Source: Acidobacteriaceae bacterium (GTDB taxonomy: Bacteria; Acidobacteriota; Terriglobia; Terriglobales; Acidobacteriaceae). From it: 64,000 nucleotides of DNA. The notes beneath the pieces were generated by a model that saw only the letters and a list, made by a program, of their open reading frames with translations, had not been told where the DNA came from and made no database searches. The stretch covers positions 1 to 64,000 of the forward strand of contig PLXP01000050.1 in NCBI GenBank assembly GCA_003151435.1, written 5' to 3'. The position numbers were made by a program, and so were the translations under genes. Below, in pieces: positions 34,325 through 50,018 of this stretch (its first letter is position 1; every line of letters begins with the position of its first letter).

Positions 34325-35584
34325 TCATTGTTTGCGCTGCGCCATTTTCAGATCCTCATGCTCGAACGCTGAAGCCATGCGGTCGATCTCGGTTTTACCG
34401 AGGCCGCGCCGCACGGCTTCTTCGCGCCACTTCGAGACGACATTGCCGACCTGTTTTGCAATATCGCGGGCCTTGCCGTCGTCCAGTTCGAAATACCCCG
34501 CAACTTCCAGGGCCAGAGCGAGAGACGCCGTGTTGTCATCCTCGTTGATCGCCGTGCTGAGGATGCGCGGCTTGATGTCGGTCGGCACGGGGTTAAGGTC
34601 ATAGGCTGGCGAGAGACGCCAGCCCTCCTGCCCCGCATAGAGAAAGCCGTGATTGCGCAAATGGTCGTCCGTGTTGGAAATCAGAATATTGAACACCAGC
34701 CGCCGCCAGAGCGCCTCCATGTCGGCTTTCGGCGCGGCCCCGTGCTGACGCAGCGCGTCGACAATTTCCAGATAGCTCCGGCCTTCGTTGTCTTTTGACC
34801 CCAGCATGCTCATGGCGGAGAGAAACGGAATTCGCTGCTTGCCTTCACGGTCAAAGCGCCGCACCAGAAGCACGGGTTTTTTGGATATGGTCTCGATGCG
34901 GCTTTCCGGCACGGCGATGCCGGCTTTTGTTGCCAGCGCAAGGGCGACCGCTTCCCATAACACTGTGTTGATTTCATCGTCCTTGCGCGGGAATTTCGCA
35001 ATCGCGAGATGGCCGTCCTTTTCAATGACAGAGGCCTTCGGGCGCGCGCCGCCGAGCGATGATCCTGGCGCGAACAGCAGGCGCAGATCCTCCTCGGTGT
35101 CCTTGTCCTCCATGACGTGTTCCGCTGCGGAAAGGAGTTTCGGCAGCTCGACAAATGGCGGGATACGTTTGACTCCCTCCTCGCGCAGGAACGAGCCGCC
35201 CTCATGTTCAGCAAAGCGCAGCGCGCCCTGTCGCGCCTCGTCATCCACGAGCAGCAGAAAGTCGATCTCCTGAAGCGTGCGCGGCGCCGTCCCCTCGCGT
35301 TCTGCGCGGCGTCGTTCCATGCGGCGCATCAGAGCGCGTCCCCACCGGTCCGGCGCCGAGTCGCCGATGGCGCCGAACATCGGCGTATCTGCCGGCGTGT
35401 GAAACGGGCCGGGACCCAACTGCAGCGCCGGCTCCAGCGAGAACCGCGCGGGATGCTGCAGCCAGCCCTCGTCGTATTCGAAGGTGGCGCTTTCCTTGTT
35501 CTTGCGGACGCGGGCCCACAGGCGCCCCATCAGATGGGGAACGCCGTCCAGGTCCACGTATACAAGGGTTTCCTTGTCCATCAC
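34325..35584 (-). CDS. hipA: HipA-type serine/threonine kinase toxin
   Basis: GDSAPDRWGRALM, LLFAPGSSLGGARPKASV, AIAKFPRKDDEINTVLWEAVALALA, LVFNILISNTDDHLRNHGFLY, SPAYDLNPVP. Confidence 0.92.
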   Translation of the reverse strand: MMDKETLVYVDLDGVPHLMGRLWARVRKNKESATFEYDEGWLQHPARFSLEPALQLGPGPFHTPADTPMFGAIGDSAPDRWGRALMRRMERRRAEREGTAPRTLQEIDFLLLVDDEARQGALRFAEHEGGSFLREEGVKRIPPFVELPKLLSAAEHVMEDKDTEEDLRLLFAPGSSLGGARPKASVIEKDGHLAIAKFPRKDDEINTVLWEAVALALATKAGIAVPESRIETISKKPVLLVRRFDREGKQRIPFLSAMSMLGSKDNEGRSYLEIVDALRQHGAAPKADMEALWRRLVFNILISNTDDHLRNHGFLYAGQEGWRLSPAYDLNPVPTDIKPRILSTAINEDDNTASLALALEVAGYFELDDGKARDIAKQVGNVVSKWREEAVRRGLGKTEIDRMASAFEHEDLKMAQRKQ

Positions 35585-35925
35585 TTATCCTTCGTGTGTT
35601 TCTGCTTGCGCGCAACACGGATGCGTTGCGGCAGATGTTCCTCTTCGAGCTGCAGGCCCACCGGGTCGTTATTCGGAGCGACCAGATCGGCCAGGCGGTC
35701 CGCCATGCCCAGTACAAAAAGGATCGTGGCGTATATCCCGATCGCGACACCGGGATCGCCCTTTTCAATCTTGACCAGGGTGGTGCGGCTTATCGACGCG
35801 CGCTGCGCCGCGATAGCCGCCGGAATGCGCCGCCGCCGCCGGGCGTCACGAATGTCGCGGCCGAGCTTTCGCAGCGCGTTCTTGACCGGTATGGGCAATA
35901 CCACGGATGATCTGCTGGTTCTCAT
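35581..35925 (-). CDS. hipB: HipB-type XRE antitoxin
   Basis: HTH segment RKLGRDIRDARRRRRIPAAIAAQRASISRTTLVKIEKGDPGVAIGIYATILFVLGM; 4-nt overlap with hipA. Confidence 0.85.
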   Translation of the reverse strand: MRTSRSSVVLPIPVKNALRKLGRDIRDARRRRRIPAAIAAQRASISRTTLVKIEKGDPGVAIGIYATILFVLGMADRLADLVAPNNDPVGLQLEEEHLPQRIRVARKQKHTKDK

Positions 35926-38619: not shown

Positions 38620-39066
38620 TCAGGCGTATGCCATTTCCCGCTGCGGCTCGATCTCCACCTTCGTGTGCAGCCGCACGTTCAGCGCGTCCAGGACCTTAAT
38701 GGCGCGCTCCAGCGTGATCCCAAAATACTCATTTCGCTCATCACGGGAGACTTGCGACTCATGCACATCGAGGCGCCTCGCCAGCTCGCGCTGGGACATC
38801 CCCTGGGCAATGCGAATCGAGATGAGCAGATGCCCGAGGCCGCGCAGGTTCTCCAGCTCCTCGAATTCACCCCGCTTGAGACGCTCATAGCTCTCGACCT
38901 CTTCCTTAAGCTGAAGGTGAAACGACTCCATCGGATCGATGACTCGCTTAATCTCCTCGTCGGAAAGGCCGGTTTCCTTCAGCCGCGCCCGATGCTCGGT
39001 GAGCCGGTTTCGCTCATCTGCGAGCCGGGCCGATGCTTCCTGGTACTCAGTCTCGTTGCGAATCAT
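38620..39066 (-). CDS. XRE-family HTH regulator/antitoxin-like protein
   Basis: IAQGMSQRELARRLDVHESQVSRDERNEYFGITLERAIKVLDALNVRL preceded by coiled-coil; start MIRNETEY 2 nt after the upstream gene stop. Confidence 0.8.
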   Translation of the reverse strand: MIRNETEYQEASARLADERNRLTEHRARLKETGLSDEEIKRVIDPMESFHLQLKEEVESYERLKRGEFEELENLRGLGHLLISIRIAQGMSQRELARRLDVHESQVSRDERNEYFGITLERAIKVLDALNVRLHTKVEIEPQREMAYA

Positions 39067-39068
39067 GG

Positions 39069-39635
39069 CTATCCTCCATAGTTGATTTTGACGATACCCC
39101 TCGGCTTGCCGTTTCGACGGCACTGGCGAAAGGCTGAGGGGAATTCCAGTTCGTTCCCATATTTGTCGAGAATCCCGCTGCCTACGCCCAGCCCCGGCAC
39201 ATGCGGATACAGTTCGACGCGGTACTGATGCCACATAGGCAGTTGCTTCTTGGGGTATCCCGGGTATGGCCTGCGTGAAGCGGGGTCCCAGGTCCAGACT
39301 TTGTATGGGTCCAGCAGATTGAGCTTGCGGGTCAATTCGCCGGTGATCAGGTCTTTCAGGTCGCACACGAAATACCCGTCTATGTCATTGGGATGGTCCT
39401 TGTCCTCGGCGAACGATCCGTCCGCGTAGATGTCACGGATACCGACCTGCCATAGCTGCCGCGCGAGAATTTCGAGGTTTTCGACGAGCATCTCACGCCA
39501 GGTCGAATCCCACGCCGAATTTCCCCCTGGCCCCGGTCCCCTGACAAGCACCGACTGCCGGAGATCCGCGAGGGAAATCTCGTAATCGCCCGGAGGAAGG
39601 AGGCCATCCTGATCGAAGGGGGGAATCGCTGTCAT
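39069..39635 (-). CDS. nucleotidyltransferase-like protein (DUF6932-like)
   Basis: DIYADGSFAEDKDHPNDIDGYFVCDL resembles an NTase GS...DxD motif; coupled to downstream XRE gene. Confidence 0.6.
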   Translation of the reverse strand: MTAIPPFDQDGLLPPGDYEISLADLRQSVLVRGPGPGGNSAWDSTWREMLVENLEILARQLWQVGIRDIYADGSFAEDKDHPNDIDGYFVCDLKDLITGELTRKLNLLDPYKVWTWDPASRRPYPGYPKKQLPMWHQYRVELYPHVPGLGVGSGILDKYGNELEFPSAFRQCRRNGKPRGIVKINYGG

Positions 39636-39671
39636 GTCTACCGCTCTGCCACACATGACACACTAGACTAC

Positions 39672-39689
39672 CTTGACACATACGTCAAG
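39672..39689. promoter_or_regulatory. inverted-repeat operator candidate between the divergent XRE/NTase-like pair and the CD-NTase
   Basis: CTTGAC-acatac-GTCAAG. Confidence 0.5.
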
Positions 39690-39808
39690 ATTACTTATTA
39701 TGGTATGAAAAGGTGCCTGTATATAGTGCATCGGTATCGGTATTGTCTATTGGTAGTGGTCCGGGCGGACTTGCTCAGGAATCGCTGCTGACCGATTTTG
39801 GAGGCTTT

Positions 39809-40756
39809 ATGGCAGTCCTTAACGCAAATATCGCGCGAAGCGGTGGAGCAAAGCCGTATCGCGACTGGGAGGCGACCTTCGCGAGCCGGGGTGCAGCGCC
39901 CGGATTGACCGAGCAGACCAAGTGCGAGAACGCCGAGCGCGCCATCCGCAAGGCGATCTCGGCAAGCACCGCCCTCGCCTCCAGGAGCATTGAGGTGTTC
40001 ACTCAGGGCTCCTATGCGAACCGAACGAATGTCCGCCAGGATAGCGATGTGGACATCTGCGTTCTTTACACCGGCGCATTCTTTCCCGATTACTCGATGA
40101 GCCAAGGGCTGAACGGCCCGCTCTTGGGATATGTCGATGGCACATACCTTTATGCCGCCTTCAAGAACGATGTACAGGCGGCCCTCATCGCGTACTTTGG
40201 CAAGGAATCGGTGACGCGCGGCAAGAAAGCGTTTGATGTCCATGCCAACACCTACCGGATCGACGCCGATGTCGTGCCGGCCTTCGAGCATCGGCGCTTC
40301 CACGGGAACTCAGCATTAAACTGGTTCGCCTCGGGGACGCAGATCTGCCCAGATGGCGGCAGCGTGATCGTCAACTGGCCGCGCCAGAACTATGCCAACG
40401 GGGTGGAGAAGAATGACGCGACCGGGCGTAGGTTCAAAGCCGTGACCCGAATCCTCAAGCGACTGCGCAACGAGATGGCCGATGAGGGCTATGCCGCAGC
40501 AGTTCCCATCTCCTCCTACCTGATTGAGTGCCTGGTCTGGAATGTTCCAAACGAGGCGTTTGGACATAGCGAACTGAAAGCGGATGTCCGGTGGGCGCTG
40601 GCGCATTTGTGGAATGAAACGCGGACGAATGAAACGTGCAATGAATGGGGTGAGATCAACGAATTGAAGGACCTGCTCTGGAGCGGCCAGCCCTGGTCCC
40701 GTGAGCAGGTAAACACGTTCCTGCAAGCGGCGTGGGACTATATCGGTTTTGAGTAG
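39809..40756 (+). CDS. CD-NTase/SMODS nucleotidyltransferase (CBASS-type oligonucleotide cyclase)
   Basis: SIEVFTQGSYANRTNVRQDSDVDICV (GS...DxD), third acidic site TYRIDADVVPAF, RFKAVTRILKRLRNEM, SSYLIECLVWNVPNEAFG; strong RBS ttttggaggctttATG at 39809. Confidence 0.82.
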   Translation: MAVLNANIARSGGAKPYRDWEATFASRGAAPGLTEQTKCENAERAIRKAISASTALASRSIEVFTQGSYANRTNVRQDSDVDICVLYTGAFFPDYSMSQGLNGPLLGYVDGTYLYAAFKNDVQAALIAYFGKESVTRGKKAFDVHANTYRIDADVVPAFEHRRFHGNSALNWFASGTQICPDGGSVIVNWPRQNYANGVEKNDATGRRFKAVTRILKRLRNEMADEGYAAAVPISSYLIECLVWNVPNEAFGHSELKADVRWALAHLWNETRTNETCNEWGEINELKDLLWSGQPWSREQVNTFLQAAWDYIGFE

Positions 40757-40758
40757 CC

Positions 40759-40812
40759 ATGGCATCCGAGCGCTATATCAAGGCCGTCATCTACGCTGCC
40801 GTGCTGGTATAG
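40759..40812 (+). pseudogene. truncated N-terminus of the gene following the CD-NTase
   Basis: ATG GCATCC... encodes MASERYIKAVIYAAVLV then TAG exactly where transposase-like sequence begins; hydrophobic helix-like start. Confidence 0.45.
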
Positions 40813-41060
40813 CAAGGATCATCGTCCCGATCTCAAGCAGTTGGTCTACGAGCTTTCCGTGACGCACGACGGCGCAGTCCCTGTGCTGTTCAAAGCGCAC
40901 GATGGCAACCGGACCGACGACACCTTGCATGAAGAGAACTGGCAGACACTGCGCGGCATTATCGGCCGCTCGGACTTCCTCTACGTGGCCGACTCCAAGC
41001 TGTGCGTCAGCAAGACGCTGATGAACATCGATCGCAACCAGGGACGATTCATTACCGAAG
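40808..41060 (+). mobile_element. internal fragment of an IS1634/IS4-superfamily transposase
   Basis: YSKDHRPDLKQLVYELSVTHDGAVPVLFKAHDGNRTDDTLHEENWQTLRGIIGRSDFLYVADSKLCVSKTLMNIDRNQGRFIT. Confidence 0.75.
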
Positions 41061-41104: not shown

Positions 41105-41551
41105 ATGGCGACCTCCTTTCAGGGCGTTGAACCAACCCCTCCACGCTCGGAAGTCCCCTTTAGATTTTCTCGTGCTTGGCTCATGAACGAACTAAGCGAG
41201 TTTCAGCTCGGAGTGTTTTACGCGTTCAGTGCATACGCGGACCAACCGCTTTTGGCTGAGGATCCAGACATTTTTGCGCGTTTTTGCGATAGCCCAGAGG
41301 TCGTAGAGCGATTAGAACCTTTCGGTCCAGCTCAAAACAATCGCATTCGCCGCACTCTAAGCCAACTTTCTGCACTGGGACTCATCGCCAAAGTGACTTT
41401 GCCTAAGCAGAACCAGGAAACCGGTGAGCGCGAATATCTCAAAGCGTTCCGCCCGCTCAGGGAAGAGGAATTCACACGCCTAACTGATGCGGCGGCATTG
41501 CGCAACGCACTGGGTGTGGGAGGTGAGCCCCAGCCGGAGATCGAGTCATGA
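41105..41551 (+). CDS. small protein (about 148 aa, winged-helix-like) coupled to the ATPase
   Basis: MATSFQGVEPTPPRSEVPFRFSRAWLMNELSEFQLGVFYAFSAYADQ...NNRIRRTLSQLSALGLIAKVTLP; ATGA overlap with next ORF; upstream frame is continuous with the transposase fragment. Confidence 0.6.
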   Translation: MATSFQGVEPTPPRSEVPFRFSRAWLMNELSEFQLGVFYAFSAYADQPLLAEDPDIFARFCDSPEVVERLEPFGPAQNNRIRRTLSQLSALGLIAKVTLPKQNQETGEREYLKAFRPLREEEFTRLTDAAALRNALGVGGEPQPEIES

Positions 41552-43332
41552 GGCTGCGCTACCTTTACTTGCAGAACTACCCGCCAATCTCGGAAATCAA
41601 AGTGCGTTTTGCCAGCGGATCGCCATTGGCTCGCAACTGCGCCATACGGTTTGTGGTTGGCTTAAATGGTAGCGGCAAGTCGAATCTGTTGCGCGCCATC
41701 GCTGAGGTGTTCCTTGCGCTGGCAGACATGCGTGTTCCTCCTTTTCCGGTCACGTTGTTCTACGAACTAGGCGCGCGCGGTTCAAAGAATCACCGTACGC
41801 TTCTGCTCCACTGTCCTGGGGATCGCAGCCGAGCGAGCTTTTGGGTATACGAGCGGTTCGCGTACGACGATCAAGACCGCCAAGAAGTGTTCGAGAAATG
41901 CATTGAACACCTTAACATGAACGGGCAGCCAGATAATCCCGGCTTCACGGCCTTGATTACTCCCGGGAGTTGGACGGTGCGTAACAGCACAGCGCCTTTA
42001 ATCGGCTTACCTTCGGCAGTTCTGGCCTATACCACGGGGGAATTACGCCCTTGGCGCTCCATCTGGGCTCGCAATCAGGATGGCCTAGGCATGCTTGAGA
42101 GCGACGAGAGCGAGATTGAATTTGGGGATGAGCGCCCAGCAGGCTGGACAGCAGCCCAAGAGGCGGCACTGCAAGCCGCGCGTAAACTGACTACCGAGGT
42201 GGAACTCTCTGCTTCAGAGCGAAAAGCGCCACTTGCCGAAGCCTATCGACGTCCGATTCTCGTGGACGCCACCTTGCTCAAGTGCGCACTCCTTGCCGTG
42301 GCCTTACCACAATCTCTCAAGACCTCAACAGATGAGTATGAGCAGTTTTTGGGAATACTTAGGGACGACGAGAAGAATGATCTACAAGAATTGTTGGAAC
42401 GAGGAAGTTGGCACCACTTGGTATCCGTCGGGTTCCGCACCCGATTGCAAGTAGCAAATTGGGATCGCAAACTGTGCGAGACAGCCAACGACTGGTGGCT
42501 GTCCGCAGGCGAAGTAATCGCCACTCCGCATCCGCTAGAACAACGCCGGACACTGTTTTTCGACCTTAAAGGGATGTTCAGTGGCATGGACGTTACGCTC
42601 CGCAGCGCTGCCCGCGACAGCCTGGCCACCTGTACCACTCAAGGCGAGGCACTTTGGACTCTACTTGGAGGCAAGGACTCCACAGCCTTCGAATTGTTTG
42701 CCCGCTTGATGGAACTCAACCAAGCTGGTCTCTTCGATGATTTGCTCTTGCGCCTGCGATGCCGGGTCGCTCCTCTGCCGGACAGCGAGGGCGTAATTCA
42801 GGATGCCGGCGTTTTGCGTTACGAAGAACTTTCGGATGGCGAACAAATGGTGCTCGGACGAATGGCCCTCTTCCACCTGCTGAGCGCCCAACAAGACGCA
42901 TTGTTGCTGCTCGATGAACCAGAGACACACTTCAATGACAAATGGAAGCGCGAGATTGTCGACATCATCGACGCTGCGATCGGAAGCACAGCAAATGACG
43001 TGCTGATTTCGACGCATTCGGCCATTGTGCTGTCGGATGTATTCAATGACGAGATCGTGATGGTGCAGAGAGCCGCCAATGGTTCAGGGGTACAACCTGT
43101 CAGTGAGAACACCTTCGCGACCGATCCCAGCGCATTGATGATGAACGTATTTGGAGCCGACGACAGTATAGGCAAACGTGCTCAACAGTTCATCGAAGCC
43201 AAGCTAAGCCACGCTACCGGTACACCGGAAGAGATGGCGGATCTTGAGCGCCTGATTGAAAGAATGGGCTCTGGGTTTTACCGCTCTGAGTTGCGCACAT
43301 TGTTGAATACATGGCGAGGCAGAAGTGCTTAA
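41548..43332 (+). CDS. AAA/ABC-type defence ATPase (PtuA/OLD-like, restriction-system-associated type)
   Basis: FVVGLNGSGKSNLLRAIAEV (Walker A), RYEELSDGEQMVLGRMALFHLLS (signature), ALLLLDEPETHFNDKW (Walker B), VLISTHSAIVLSDVF (H-loop). Confidence 0.85.
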   Translation: MRLRYLYLQNYPPISEIKVRFASGSPLARNCAIRFVVGLNGSGKSNLLRAIAEVFLALADMRVPPFPVTLFYELGARGSKNHRTLLLHCPGDRSRASFWVYERFAYDDQDRQEVFEKCIEHLNMNGQPDNPGFTALITPGSWTVRNSTAPLIGLPSAVLAYTTGELRPWRSIWARNQDGLGMLESDESEIEFGDERPAGWTAAQEAALQAARKLTTEVELSASERKAPLAEAYRRPILVDATLLKCALLAVALPQSLKTSTDEYEQFLGILRDDEKNDLQELLERGSWHHLVSVGFRTRLQVANWDRKLCETANDWWLSAGEVIATPHPLEQRRTLFFDLKGMFSGMDVTLRSAARDSLATCTTQGEALWTLLGGKDSTAFELFARLMELNQAGLFDDLLLRLRCRVAPLPDSEGVIQDAGVLRYEELSDGEQMVLGRMALFHLLSAQQDALLLLDEPETHFNDKWKREIVDIIDAAIGSTANDVLISTHSAIVLSDVFNDEIVMVQRAANGSGVQPVSENTFATDPSALMMNVFGADDSIGKRAQQFIEAKLSHATGTPEEMADLERLIERMGSGFYRSELRTLLNTWRGRSA

Positions 43333-44434
43333 GGAGATCCATCGCATTCCTTGCACTCCGGCGTTAGCGGCCTGCCAAAGGCTGATGAAATGCTTTGCTC
43401 TTTGGCTGTGTCAGCCATCCACAAACGCGGAAAGCATCACGCAAAATGGGTTGCAGCCTCCGATCTCGCCTAGCGCGATCGAAGCCAATTGGCTATGGCA
43501 GTTCTTGCAGAGAACGGAATCGGAAATCGCACTGCTAAATCGTGCGAGGAATGTTGCAAACATGTCTGCTCCGAGGAAATTCCTTCTGAGTGCTTGGATA
43601 CAAGATGTTTCCGCGCTCCCCGCTCAGTTTCAGCCTACTCCTGGAAATTGGCCAGCCGAAAAACCCCCGATCCCTGCACTGTCCTGGAATGCGTTCAAGG
43701 TTCTCATGCAGGCCTTCTACAAGAAAGGCTTGAATAGCGCTAGCGGAATCCCCTATCTACCCAATGGCACTCCGGTCGCCGATGGCGGGCTAACATACCT
43801 TGCCTTTGTACAAGGATTTCGCGACACCCACCGGCTGAACCCAGATCCGAACGCCCGCGAAGTCTGCGTACTGTGCGGCGGCCCACTGGGTGAGTCCCCT
43901 GAAGTAGACCATTGGATAGCCCAGAGTGGCGTGCCGTTGTTTAGTGTGTGCAGTGATAACCTTTTGCCGACCTGCGGAACGTGCAATTCTACTACCAATA
44001 AAGGAGAGAAGGATGTGCACGATGGCGGAAGTTTCGCTAATTGGTTTCACCCCTACTTGCGCGCCGCCAACGGGGCGTTGACCTTGGGCTATGACTTGTT
44101 GTCACGAAGAGTAACGTGCACTGCCGCGCAGGAAATTGACCAACCCAAGGTGGAGAATCTCAACCACCTGCTCAATCTCAGAGACCGCTGGACTCGGGAA
44201 TTCAAAAACGAATACGTCGACCAGCAGAATGTGTTGCGCCGACGCGAGCAAATCCGAATTCAGAACGGCCAGCCACGCCACACGCAAGCCGAAGTGCTGC
44301 AATATTTGCGTCAGATGCAGGCCGACCTCGTGCCAAGTAAGCCGCATTATGAAGTCCACCAAGTGCTGTGTGCGACGATGTTGGAAACAGCACGACTTGC
44401 GGCTTGGCAAACTGAATTAGATTTGGTGCAATAG
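43325..44434 (+). CDS. HNH endonuclease domain protein (PtuB-like)
   Basis: CVLCGGPLGESPEVDHWIAQSGVPLFSVCSDNLLPTCGTCNSTTNKG (CxxC ... DH ... N ... CxxCN); GTG start overlaps ATPase stop by 8 nt. Confidence 0.82.
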   Translation: MLKEIHRIPCTPALAACQRLMKCFALWLCQPSTNAESITQNGLQPPISPSAIEANWLWQFLQRTESEIALLNRARNVANMSAPRKFLLSAWIQDVSALPAQFQPTPGNWPAEKPPIPALSWNAFKVLMQAFYKKGLNSASGIPYLPNGTPVADGGLTYLAFVQGFRDTHRLNPDPNAREVCVLCGGPLGESPEVDHWIAQSGVPLFSVCSDNLLPTCGTCNSTTNKGEKDVHDGGSFANWFHPYLRAANGALTLGYDLLSRRVTCTAAQEIDQPKVENLNHLLNLRDRWTREFKNEYVDQQNVLRRREQIRIQNGQPRHTQAEVLQYLRQMQADLVPSKPHYEVHQVLCATMLETARLAAWQTELDLVQ

Positions 44435-45295: not shown

Positions 45296-45593
45296 AGTCG
45301 GCATCCATCTGCTTCTCAATACAAAAAAGGCTTGACTTTCTGCGCGATCGGGGGCTCAATAACTGTCCGAGCGATTTCCATTCCTTCGCGATCCCTGTTC
45401 TCCTTCAACCGCGTGAGGAATGATGTCTTTCAGTAGTAGCTTGGTCCGAATCTGTTTCTGGTGCGGTGCCAAGTCACAATTCCGAGCCAGGACTAGGTTC
45501 GGCCGTATCTCTGCGTGCCGACTACTGAGAGAGCGTCTGTTTCCAGATCGGAACAACGGTAGGACGAGAGAACAATTCCCGGAGGTGGCCCCC

Positions 45594-48500
45594 ATGAATG
45601 GAAGCACCGGGGATTCGGACAATCGATGGTCGGTCATCGATGAACTGGCGAATCTCAAAGAGAATCCGAACCTCAAAGGCAGTCTGATTATCGGCAGGGA
45701 GCCGGACCTCGAGGCTTGTCTCCGCCGGGTGCTGCGCCCCCACGACGAAGCTGGTTTTCAGTCGCCCAATGACGACTGGATGATTCGGGTGCGTGCTCAA
45801 CTGGACGAGGATCTCGGAAGCCTGACTCTGCGTGAGATCCGCGAGCAACTGGGTTTTCCTAACGAGGATCTTCCCAACCGAACGCAAGCGAATCTCAGGA
45901 TACTGTTTCGCTCGGACGCATTTTTGCGTTATGTCAACGCGTACCTGTTTTTCGGCATACGGTTTCTTGCCTGCCGAGCGAAAGTGCTGTCATCCTCTGG
46001 GGGCGAAGAACTGGCTTCATGCGCAGATGCCAACGTGCGCCCTTTTGCATTGGTGCCGCCGCCTGTGTTGGCTGAAGTGCTCGGCGCCCAGCAGCGGTTC
46101 GAGGAGTTCGCGAGACTGACCACTCGCCAACCGGGAACTGCAGTCGATACAGCGCTGTCCTTCCTCGACGATTTCCACCCGCCGCAGCTTGATCCCGTTC
46201 AGTATGAATTGCAGGAGCCATCGCAATATGAACTGTGGCTGCGCGGACTGCGTCCGGAGACGGAAGAGAGACAGAATGCACGATTCGAAGAAATCAGCAA
46301 GGGGTTGGCAGAGTGGGCAAGGACGCGCTGCAACTTCTATCTTTCGCTTGACCCGCAGGCGCCTGCACTCATTCAGTCAGCCGAAGCGGTCGAAGAGCAG
46401 GCTCTGAATGAACGCCCGCCACAGGGGTGGCTGGTCACACATCCAATGGCTGCCCGCTTGGCACTGGCCGATGTCTATTGGATCGCGCGTCTTCTGCGCG
46501 CCGATGTGTCGGCAAATGCGACCGTCACTTACCACAAGGATAACTGGCTTCATTTGTTGCGCTTCCACCTAATTCTCGCACGCGACCTGGATGGCTCCAA
46601 GACACTGGAAAAGGCTGAAGAGGCACTGCGTTCGGTGTTCGACTATGTGTGCGATCTCATTCAGAATTCGGTCGAGATCACGATCACGCGCGAGAACGAT
46701 CGAATCAAGGCAAATTCCGGCGAAACGAATAATCTGCCGCTGGGCACGGAAAGATGGCGGGCTGTGTTCAACGAAGAGCTCGGCGAAATAGCGAGACAGA
46801 GAAGAGTGCGGCATTTTCGCGATCCCTCGCTGCCGCCGGAAGCGACTGCCGGGCCGCGTGACGGAATTGGTCCTATCGTGTCCCCGGGCCCAGGTGAGCC
46901 GGGGGCGTTGGCCAGTGCGACAGATGAAGGCGTAATCCGCTCATTCGGAGTCAGCGGTGGTTCGAGCACTGAGTTATCCGATGGCATCGGTCAGGGGAAC
47001 CCGCCGCCGAGCCCGCCGAGCGCGACAAACAGTGGCTGGAGCAAGAGGATCACGACTGGCAAGGGTCCCTTTAATCTCATCGGTCTTGCCTTTTCCGGAG
47101 GCGGAATTCGCAGTGCCACATTCAACCTCGGTGTTTTACAGGGTCTTCAGGAACTGGATCTTCTCCGCCAAGTCGATTATCTGTCGACCGTTTCAGGCGG
47201 CGGCTTTATCGGCTCGTGGCTGGTGGCGAATGTTCGCCGTAGTGCGCACTGGCTTGGCCGTCTCACAGACTGGAGCGATTCGATCGCTCACTTGCGCGCC
47301 CACTCCAACTATCTTGCACCGCGTTCGGGAATTCTTAGCGCCGATACCTGGAACATGGGCATTAGCTGGTTCCGAAATGCCATTCTCATCCAGCTCACGG
47401 GACTGGCGTGGCTCTTCGCCTTGCTGTTGTCAACGCTGGTGGCTCTCCGGGTCTTCCTCCTCGCGGGACATCGCGCCATGCTGTTCGGCTATTCATGGGC
47501 TGCGTGGGTGATGGCAATTGCAGCGGGCATTCTCGTCGTTGCGATTTCATACAACTTGCACGGAACCAGTTCTTATGCCGGCGGGGGCAAGAGCCGCCGG
47601 TCGGGATGGGTCTGGTGGCTGGTGGTCATACCGGGCTGGGTTGGCGCGTGCGCTCTAGCCTCGCAATTCTGGGCCACGGCTCGTTTAACGTTCAATGCGT
47701 GGCCCTCTCTCGCGGGACTGAACCACTACTCAGAGCTGCTTAAAGCCGCATGGAGTCCGTGGCGCTGTATCCTCCTGGCGGCGCTCTTTGGCTTCTACGT
47801 CATCACCGTGTTTACGCTGCGGCGCCATCGCTGGCATGCCATATGGATCAGCATCTGGTGCACATCTGTGCTCTATCTTGAGCTGGTCGGGATCTTCCTC
47901 TTGTTTCGGAAATGGTCCGGCTTGTGCGATATTGCCAACGGCCTGGGATTCGTCTTCGGTCCTTTGCTTGTCCTGTTCGCCTTTTCTGTCTGCGTTCTCC
48001 TTCTCATCGGGTTTACGGGGCGCAACACCGACGAAGCGAGACGGGAATGGTGGACGCGCCTCGGAACCTGCCTGGGGATCTTCGCCGGAATCGGAGTCTT
48101 TGTCTGCGGAGTTGCGGTATTCGGTCCGTGGCTGGTTCTGCACTTCTACAACTGGGCCAGCACAAACTATTCACTGTCCGTTAAGAGCATCAAGTGGACC
48201 GCCGTCCTGAGCTGGCTCGGCACCGTGATTGGCGGCCTGCTCGCCGGCAAAAGCAACAAGACGGCGGGCGAAGGTGACAGCGCCAGTTCCCCTGCGCTGG
48301 AGGCACTGGCTAGGGTCGGAGGGTTCCTCTTCATCGTCGGCAGCTTTCTGCTGGGTTCAACATTGCTCTACATCCTGATTTTCGAGATCTTCGCTTCAGA
48401 AACTTCAGTATTGGCCGTTATCCACATGCTGTGCAAGGAGCTCAGTTTGTGGGAGATCTTTCTTGCTTTCGGTGTCGCTTTCGGCATCGGTTCGCTGTTT

Positions 48501-50018
48501 TCCTTTTGGTTTGAGATCAATATCTTCGGTCTAAACCAGTTCTATCGGAACCGGCTGGTGCGTTGTTATCTGGGCGCCACGCGCTGGACCCCCGGCGTTC
48601 GGAAGCCAAACCCCTTCACCAAGTTTGATTTCAGAGATGACCTGGGACTCTCGCGATTCCGAACCGATTCACCCGGCGCCGACTTGCCCAACCTGAACAC
48701 GCCGGCGGCGGAATGCGGTCCGTACCGGGGCCCGCTTCCCATCCTCAACTGCGCGCTCAACCTCGGAGGCAGTTCGGACCTTACTCTGAACACGCGCCAC
48801 AGCGCCTCATTCACTCTCACGTCGCTGCGCTGCGGCTCTGATCGTCCCAAAGTCGGTTATGCTCCCACCTGGTCCCCAAACGGCAGTTTTGCCGACGGCG
48901 TTCCCCTGGGCCAGGCAGTATCCATTTCCGGTGCGGCCGTGAACCCCAACATGGGTTACAACACCTCGCCGCTGGTGGCCTTTCTGCTTACGATGTTCAA
49001 TGTGCGCCTGGGCTGGTGGTTTCCGAATCCCGGTCAGCCACGCTGGCGCCGCAGAGGACTGAGTTTCAGCCTCTATTACCTGGTAATGGAACTGCTCGGG
49101 ATCGCTAACGAAAAGCGAAACTTCCTCAGTGTTTCGGATGGCGGACATTTTGAGAACCTGGCCATTTACGAGCTGATCCGGCGGCGCTGCAAACTGATCA
49201 TTGCCTGCGATGCCGAGTGCGATGAGCAGTTACAGTTCGGCGGGCTGGGCAATATGATCCGCATCTGCGAAACGGATTTCGGCGCCGTGATCGACATCGA
49301 CGTAAAATCGATCCGTCCTGGCAAAGAGGGGCACAGCCTCGCACATTGCGCTGTTGGCACGATCAAATACTGCAGCGGCGAGATAGGGCGCCTCATCTAC
49401 CTCAAGGCGTCGATGACGGGTGACGAAGACGTTAGCATTGCGCAATACCGGAGCTCGCATCCCTCGTTCCCACACGAAAGCACGTCGAACCAGTTCTACT
49501 CGGAATATCAGTTTGAGAGTTACCGCAAGCTGGGTTTGCACATCGTTCGCTCCTCCTTTAAAGGCAACCTGCCTGGAGACGATCCACACATGATCGCCGA
49601 GCGAATGGCCGACGTTCTCACACCCGCCGGATGTTCCGGCGAGGCATTCCTGAAGCACGGTGAGGCCCTCGGGAAGATATGGGAAAATTTCCGCGCGTCT
49701 TCTAGCTTGCTTTCATTCATGCAGGAGCTGATCAGTCTCGAACAAAAAACCGCGCCTACTGCAGTGACCGATGAGGAGCTTTGCATCGGACTCGAGCTGA
49801 TTCAGCTGATGGAAGATGTGTTCCTGGACCTGCGGCTGAACGACTTTTGGGAACATCCGGATAATCGGGGCTGGGCCATCCTTTTCATGCGATGGGCGCG
49901 CAGTCCTCGATTCCGACTAATCTGGGAGAAGACGCGGCGCACGTTTGGCATCCGCTTTGAATACTTCTGTCATGCGCGCCTGGGACTCACACGCGACCGG
50001 CCGATTATTCGTGTGTAG
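45594..50018 (+). CDS. giant membrane patatin-like phospholipase family protein (about 1474 aa)
   Basis: NLIGLAFSGGGIRSATFNLGVLQGLQELDLLRQVDYLSTVSGGGFIGSWL; multiple TM helices; FLSVSDGGHFENLAIYELIRRRCKLIIACDAE (catalytic DG); RBS GGAGG before ATG 45594. Confidence 0.82.
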   Translation: MNGSTGDSDNRWSVIDELANLKENPNLKGSLIIGREPDLEACLRRVLRPHDEAGFQSPNDDWMIRVRAQLDEDLGSLTLREIREQLGFPNEDLPNRTQANLRILFRSDAFLRYVNAYLFFGIRFLACRAKVLSSSGGEELASCADANVRPFALVPPPVLAEVLGAQQRFEEFARLTTRQPGTAVDTALSFLDDFHPPQLDPVQYELQEPSQYELWLRGLRPETEERQNARFEEISKGLAEWARTRCNFYLSLDPQAPALIQSAEAVEEQALNERPPQGWLVTHPMAARLALADVYWIARLLRADVSANATVTYHKDNWLHLLRFHLILARDLDGSKTLEKAEEALRSVFDYVCDLIQNSVEITITRENDRIKANSGETNNLPLGTERWRAVFNEELGEIARQRRVRHFRDPSLPPEATAGPRDGIGPIVSPGPGEPGALASATDEGVIRSFGVSGGSSTELSDGIGQGNPPPSPPSATNSGWSKRITTGKGPFNLIGLAFSGGGIRSATFNLGVLQGLQELDLLRQVDYLSTVSGGGFIGSWLVANVRRSAHWLGRLTDWSDSIAHLRAHSNYLAPRSGILSADTWNMGISWFRNAILIQLTGLAWLFALLLSTLVALRVFLLAGHRAMLFGYSWAAWVMAIAAGILVVAISYNLHGTSSYAGGGKSRRSGWVWWLVVIPGWVGACALASQFWATARLTFNAWPSLAGLNHYSELLKAAWSPWRCILLAALFGFYVITVFTLRRHRWHAIWISIWCTSVLYLELVGIFLLFRKWSGLCDIANGLGFVFGPLLVLFAFSVCVLLLIGFTGRNTDEARREWWTRLGTCLGIFAGIGVFVCGVAVFGPWLVLHFYNWASTNYSLSVKSIKWTAVLSWLGTVIGGLLAGKSNKTAGEGDSASSPALEALARVGGFLFIVGSFLLGSTLLYILIFEIFASETSVLAVIHMLCKELSLWEIFLAFGVAFGIGSLFSFWFEINIFGLNQFYRNRLVRCYLGATRWTPGVRKPNPFTKFDFRDDLGLSRFRTDSPGADLPNLNTPAAECGPYRGPLPILNCALNLGGSSDLTLNTRHSASFTLTSLRCGSDRPKVGYAPTWSPNGSFADGVPLGQAVSISGAAVNPNMGYNTSPLVAFLLTMFNVRLGWWFPNPGQPRWRRRGLSFSLYYLVMELLGIANEKRNFLSVSDGGHFENLAIYELIRRRCKLIIACDAECDEQLQFGGLGNMIRICETDFGAVIDIDVKSIRPGKEGHSLAHCAVGTIKYCSGEIGRLIYLKASMTGDEDVSIAQYRSSHPSFPHESTSNQFYSEYQFESYRKLGLHIVRSSFKGNLPGDDPHMIAERMADVLTPAGCSGEAFLKHGEALGKIWENFRASSSLLSFMQELISLEQKTAPTAVTDEELCIGLELIQLMEDVFLDLRLNDFWEHPDNRGWAILFMRWARSPRFRLIWEKTRRTFGIRFEYFCHARLGLTRDRPIIRV

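Follow-up and report, generated by a model that had tools for sequence, protein, structure and literature searches.

The question of how bacteria keep suicidal defences, CBASS among them, silent is an active one, and a locus in an acidobacterial genome raises it in a specific form: does a two-gene unit, made up of a predicted nucleotidyltransferase (NTase) and an XRE-type regulator, control the CBASS gene that faces it? The window, by which is meant the whole 64,000-nt stretch of Acidobacteriaceae DNA that was analysed (contig PLXP01000050.1), carries on its plus strand a gene for a CdnE-type CD-NTase of 315 aa (39809..40756; ATG at 39809 with GGAGG ahead of it, stop at 40756). Divergent from it across a 173-nt spacer lies a minus-strand operon, in which the gene for DUF6932, a predicted NTase-fold enzyme of 188 aa (39069..39635; ATG at 39635, TAG at 39069-39071), comes first, and the gene for its XRE partner of 148 aa (38620..39066; ATG at 39066, TGA at 38620-38622) follows after a 2-nt gap. 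Both the divergent layout and the 2-nt coupling had been reported in a preliminary description of this DNA, and are confirmed by the coordinates of the open reading frames, with stop and start codons at 39069 and 39066.

The spacer contains the inverted repeat CTTGACACATACGTCAAG (CTTGAC-N6-GTCAAG; 39672..39689, assigned to neither strand), exactly where it had first been noticed. This is a putative XRE operator, each arm of which is the -35 hexamer of one of two divergent promoters. The predicted DUF6932-XRE promoter, TTGACG-17-TAGTGT (39661..39689, minus strand), has a position that is conserved in relatives; the predicted CD-NTase promoter, TTGACA-17-TATTAT (39673..39701, plus strand), agrees with the consensus at 11 of 12 positions and has its -35 box within the operator. 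CTTGACACATACGTCAAG has no second exact match in the 64-kb window, and the single exact site of TTGACNTNNNTGTCAA in the 5.96-Mb genome is this palindrome. Since 39672-39689 is the only exact site in the genome, regulation by the XRE protein is probably local. A 6-bp inverted repeat with a gap of 0-10 nt is present in about 30% of shuffled 173-nt spacers; a palindrome in one spacer is thus unremarkable by chance, and comparative evidence is needed.

Relatives of the pair were collected with a DUF6932 alignment as query: 85,462 species genomes yielded 80 loci, and viral contigs yielded three more; genes in these relatives are uncurated longest-ORF calls, and records L013-L018, L161 and L162 repeat L022-L040. 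An XRE homologue lies directly downstream of DUF6932 on the same strand in 83 of 83 loci, most commonly with a 4-nt overlap. Scanning the viral contigs with the XRE as well as the DUF6932 alignment returned only the same three contigs. In a set of 200 related genomes, DUF6932 and the XRE relative are found in the same nine, and neither occurs without the other. The pair is found in Acidobacteriota, Planctomycetota, Myxococcota, Pseudomonadota, Chloroflexota, Cyanobacteriota and others, and also on plasmids. The earlier suggestion that the NTase-like and XRE genes form a unit is thus borne out by synteny and, as judged from gene order, the pair is an obligate cross-phylum module. It is best explained as a mobile two-gene control module of the 'enzyme plus repressor' kind, with predicted self-regulation.

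A type II-like toxin-antitoxin system is a serious rival, and a real if minority possibility. DUF6932 would then be an NTase toxin modifying tRNA or protein, as MenT does, and the XRE protein an antitoxin that binds the toxin via its helical hairpin and autorepresses via its HTH; control of CBASS would be a by-product of location. In line with this, the module is a small mobile bicistron with overlapping genes, spread over many phyla and plasmids, with obligate pairing and a putative autoregulatory operator. Broken copies point the same way, as DUF6932 is damaged in six loci with an intact XRE gene and XRE is damaged in one. However, this asymmetry is weak, and it also fits an enzyme whose loss leaves the repressor on.

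The product of 39069-39635 had been described as NTase-like, and several observations back this. It matches PF22014 (E 1.8e-30) and contains the motif GSF-x8-DID, with D84, D86 and E141 as candidate metal ligands; the GSF and DxD residues and E141 are invariant in DUF6932 relatives (alignments of 70 and 78 sequences). The NTase-superfamily signature, hG[GS]-x-DxD plus a third carboxylate, is present. The best Foldseek matches of its AlphaFold model (pLDDT 90.2) are NTases, namely CdnC, CCA-adding enzymes, AadA and MNT antitoxins, with individual E-values that are weak (at least 0.02; best 0.023). One distant DUF6932 family protein gives a Pfam Polbeta match at E 1.9e-4, which is below the curated cut-off. 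By sequence and model, DUF6932 looks like an NTase, with predicted enzyme activity. A profile comparison of DUF6932 with the CdnE alignment detected no similarity. DUF6932 is not mentioned in the literature searched, although its link to CBASS may nonetheless have been published.

The module resembles AbiE and MenAT (NTase toxin plus antitoxin) in joining an NTase gene to that of a regulator or antitoxin, but there is no detectable sequence relation, and the partner in the module is a hairpin-XRE protein or an HTH-less hairpin. Profile searches with the AbiEi and AbiEii families gave no matches for DUF6932 or the XRE protein. The families of DUF6932 and its partner are not among the NTase toxin-antitoxin systems checked, which speaks against a toxin-antitoxin assignment. 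The conserved Rx4-6H expected in a HEPN-MNT pair is absent from the partner, and from the HTH-less partners as well. The presence of AadA and AAD(9) among the Foldseek matches raises a further alternative, in which DUF6932 is a small-molecule (antibiotic-type) NTase under a substrate-responsive XRE repressor. This is very improbable: the coupling to a helical partner is tight even when that partner has no HTH, and the module is linked to CBASS.

The XRE partner consists of an N-terminal helical hairpin (residues 5-64) and a Cro/CI-type HTH (about 74-128; HTH_3 match, E 7.5e-11). The best Foldseek matches of its AlphaFold model (pLDDT 91.6) are HipB and restriction-modification C-proteins. Distant DUF6932 proteins have other partners: two are XRE proteins of another type, two are proteins of 314-324 aa, and seven are HTH-less proteins of 66-74 aa. 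The seven (L129, L130, L132, L133, L137, L138 and L140) form an uncharacterised minimal pair with DUF6932, and one of them, scanned against Pfam and PADLOC, gave no match. In L125 and L128 the DUF6932 variants, which correspond to the PADLOC candidate PDC-M63A, are followed by the uncharacterised 314-324 aa protein. In alignments, the short HTH-less partners correspond to the XRE protein's N-terminal hairpin (hhalign E 7e-5); the hairpin is thus the core that these partners have in common, and the HTH is optional. Because the HTH is missing from the partners of some relatives, the core function of the pair cannot lie in transcriptional control alone. A partner with an optional HTH and only the hairpin in common is also what would be expected of a modular antitoxin, and HipB antitoxins are the nearest folds of the XRE HTH. 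In addition, DarG and AbiEi occur among the neighbours of the module, a defence-island setting as is found for toxin-antitoxin modules.

Comparison of the loci changes the standing of the palindrome. A conserved version, TTGACATNNATGTCAA, overlaps the -35 box of DUF6932, about 50 nt upstream of the start of that gene; at least 11 of 14 positions match in 67 of 84 loci, against 0.7% of shuffles. When the site is picked by its -35/-10 likeness alone, the far arm has at least five of seven matches in 82% of cases, against 1.3%. A close variant is located upstream of the Mesobacillus pair. In the loci with an HTH-less partner the palindrome scores like shuffled sequence (seven of seven loci), and it is missing in loci whose partner is the other XRE type. 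Conservation in the same place upstream of DUF6932 in relatives across phyla, together with absence beside HTH-less partners, raises the palindrome above chance and makes it almost certainly the XRE operator, as a candidate identified by comparison. The possibility that it is an artefact of back-to-back -35 boxes was rejected, since the arm that the DUF6932 promoter does not need is conserved, and since the site is absent with HTH-less partners. One locus (L028:4940-4990) has the operator inside a near-perfect palindrome of ~44 bp (CCTCATAGCCATACTTGACATGGATGTCAAGTATGGCTATGAGG), with nearly identical divergent promoters for DUF6932-XRE and for a CBASS operon that includes HORMA and TRIP13 genes.

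A PADLOC scan of the nearest neighbour genes identified CBASS genes divergent from DUF6932-XRE in 7 of 84 loci: the window, L028, L031, L030, L038, L048 and L102. The divergent side contains CD-NTase, HORMA and TRIP13 in L038; SAVED-TIR, CD-NTase, HORMA and TRIP13 in L048; and TRIP13, HORMA, CD-NTase and SAVED-TIR in L028 and L031, which are two contigs of one MAG. Two loci are partial, with a CD-NTase cut at the contig end (L030) and a truncated CapV phospholipase (L102). No CBASS parts were found on other sides of the module (Fisher p=4e-5, divergent vs all other positions); these loci were noticed post hoc, the statistics coming from that very survey, and enlarging it added few loci. The outer operator arm is the -35 box facing the CBASS genes, and it is followed at 16-18 nt by a -10 with at least 4/6 matches in 6 of 7 CBASS loci. 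Such a divergent -10 is seen in 5 of 57 other operator-bearing loci and in none of the 18 others that have a divergent gene (p=4e-5 for each comparison). Gene content, not promoter quality, decided which loci counted as CBASS loci. A toxin-antitoxin system would predict neither this divergent bias of CBASS nor its promoter.

On a tree of the pair, the CBASS label needs six changes, four of them forced by supported branches, and all seven CBASS-flanked loci fall within one subclade of about 30. These changes indicate that the CBASS association has several origins, or has been lost and regained repeatedly, and involves different CBASS types. Against the controller reading, 92% of loci have no CBASS neighbour, so the module has a life of its own. 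From the side of CdnE, none of the CdnE relatives surveyed has a DUF6932 gene next to it, and viral contigs scanned with CdnE gave nothing. The association with CdnE had seemed a one-off in the CdnE-only neighbour search, where no CdnE homologue turned up next to the module, a view that was overturned by the scan for all CBASS parts.

Could the junction in the window be accidental, the module having landed upstream of a CBASS remnant with a divergent promoter by chance? The CdnE gene has no Cap15 beside it and CdnE relatives elsewhere have no adjoining DUF6932, as this would predict, but six other loci have the same divergent layout with other CBASS types, and divergent promoters are better in CBASS-flanked than in non-CBASS loci; accident is therefore an unlikely explanation. 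The preliminary proposal that the operator is shared with the CD-NTase finds support, at the level of sequence, in the recurrent divergent placement of CBASS and its dedicated promoter (6/7 vs 5/57), and the recurrence of both arrangement and promoter in other loci carries the idea beyond what a single locus could offer. The module thus shares with the controllers of adjacent pathways (CapH+CapP, CapK+CapS and CapW), as a functional class, a recurrent adjacency to immune operons with its own palindromic putative operator in their promoter, CBASS being divergent in 7 of 84 loci.

The CBASS copy in the window itself is a different matter. PADLOC cyclase models recognise the CD-NTase (E 4e-119), and among crystal structures it matches those of CdnE (7x4f, E 1.4e-86); its GS/DVD motif is intact, as expected of the CD-NTase in a type I CBASS (CdnE-Cap15). 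Cyclic di-pyrimidine CdnEs have an (R/Q)xW motif and are accompanied by Cap15 (PMC10442399); QPW at 294-296 fits this motif. The system is like CdnE-Cap15 type I CBASS in its CdnE clade and (R/Q)xW motif, and its relatives carry Cap15 (PMC10442399), with Cap15 (PF18153) coming directly or nearly directly after CdnE; it differs in that the window has no Cap15, the effector expected in the operon, and has an internal fragment of an IS1634-family transposase in its place (40808..41056, plus strand; NF033559 positions 156-241 of 483, E 4e-19; the sole copy in the genome). Just after CdnE, a short frame (MASERYIKAVIYAAVLV-stop; 40759..40812, plus strand) is, by position only, a possible remnant of the Cap15 gene start, and the similarity of the MASERYIKAVIYAAVLV peptide to Cap15 N-termini is not significant. 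A search without a positive control found no Cap15 downstream of CdnE or elsewhere in the 94% complete assembly. Because the expected Cap15 is gone and an IS1634 fragment stands instead, the operon has probably decayed and this CBASS copy is probably a relic. The XRE protein had been proposed to license the CD-NTase here; with the expected effector lost, the copy probably licenses nothing today.

How might the module act where CBASS is whole? We give slightly better than even weight to the reading that DUF6932-XRE is an enzyme-plus-repressor controller, in which XRE blocks both promoters and DUF6932 acts on its partner. An XRE dimer on the palindrome would cover both -35 boxes, blocking both promoters at once and keeping CBASS (CdnE) low. 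The NTase-fold DUF6932 would act on the partner, most likely by nucleotidylating or sequestering the N-terminal helical hairpin, and this would lift repression during stress or infection. Repression by XRE of its own promoter is strongly indicated, repression of the CBASS promoter moderately so, and antagonism or modification of the partner by DUF6932, via the hairpin common to short and long partners, weakly. A toxin-antitoxin system would account just as well for the modular partner, for the asymmetry among broken copies and for the wide distribution, and it is compatible with such control.

The preliminary description had regarded shared-operator control of CBASS as uncommon, but a precedent exists in CapW, whose repression of a divergent CBASS promoter works both ways (PMC9122588). 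CapW/BrxR is similar in having a palindrome in a shared divergent promoter. However, it is a single WYL protein, and the CapW palindrome overlaps the -10, whereas that of DUF6932-XRE overlaps both -35s. Three families of regulators that silence defences such as CBASS have been counted (PMC13373217). CapH+CapP, as described in that source, likewise has adjacent genes for an enzyme and an HTH repressor beside the promoter of CBASS and other immune operons (PMC13373217), but there CapP is an ssDNA-activated peptidase that cleaves CapH, whereas DUF6932 has an NTase-like fold without HExxH. This metallopeptidase motif is absent from both DUF6932 and XRE proteins, and the enzyme partner is a PF22014 protein. 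CapK+CapS shares the order of enzyme gene then repressor gene, autoregulation through a palindrome (putative in DUF6932-XRE) and the association with CBASS (PMC13373217). In contrast to the NTase and hairpin-XRE protein of the module, it is made up of a GHKL kinase and a STAS-wHTH protein; its operator is unrelated (TTAA half-sites), and CBASS lies downstream of capS rather than divergent (PMC13373217). CapK/CapS-like proteins have also been co-opted in a toxin-antitoxin system (PMC13373217). On the best reading, DUF6932-XRE would be analogous to CapH+CapP and CapK+CapS, although the families are unrelated.

The recurring pairing suggests an unreported family of regulators that restrain phage defences. 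A more specific proposal is tentative and somewhat doubtful: a fourth family of immune-operon controllers, in which the NTase covalently modifies (e.g., AMPylates or UMPylates) the partner hairpin, the symmetric bidirectional operator opens, and the module and the divergent CBASS are de-repressed together, the HTH-less pairs having another output. If true, this would be a new regulator family, distinct from the known enzyme-repressor pairs and repeatedly joined to CBASS of different types; DUF6932 would gain a testable function, and the operator motif could be used to find further immune operons.

Other defence-related genes lie near the module or its relatives. In the window, a HipA-like protein (HipA_C, E 3e-51) is encoded directly after a small HTH protein on the minus strand (34325-35925), and this HipBA-type pair is about 3 kb from DUF6932-XRE. 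Downstream of the CBASS remnant, at 41548-44434 (plus strand), a gene for an AAA ATPase (PtuA-like, restriction-associated AAA) overlaps a PDC-M01B/PtuB-like gene; by sequence, the two are probably a Septu-like defence pair. A 1532-aa protein at 45420-50018 (plus strand) has a patatin-like phospholipase stretch and, by eye, many membrane segments. Elsewhere, a membrane protein that by eye resembles a Pycsar effector (L026:6010-6579) has a 4-nt overlap with the end of the XRE gene. Finally, a gene for a small membrane protein and another that may encode a nucleotide cyclase (L107:8739-10098) lie beside an acidobacterial CdnE-Cap15 operon, which, judged by eye, suggests a Pycsar system.
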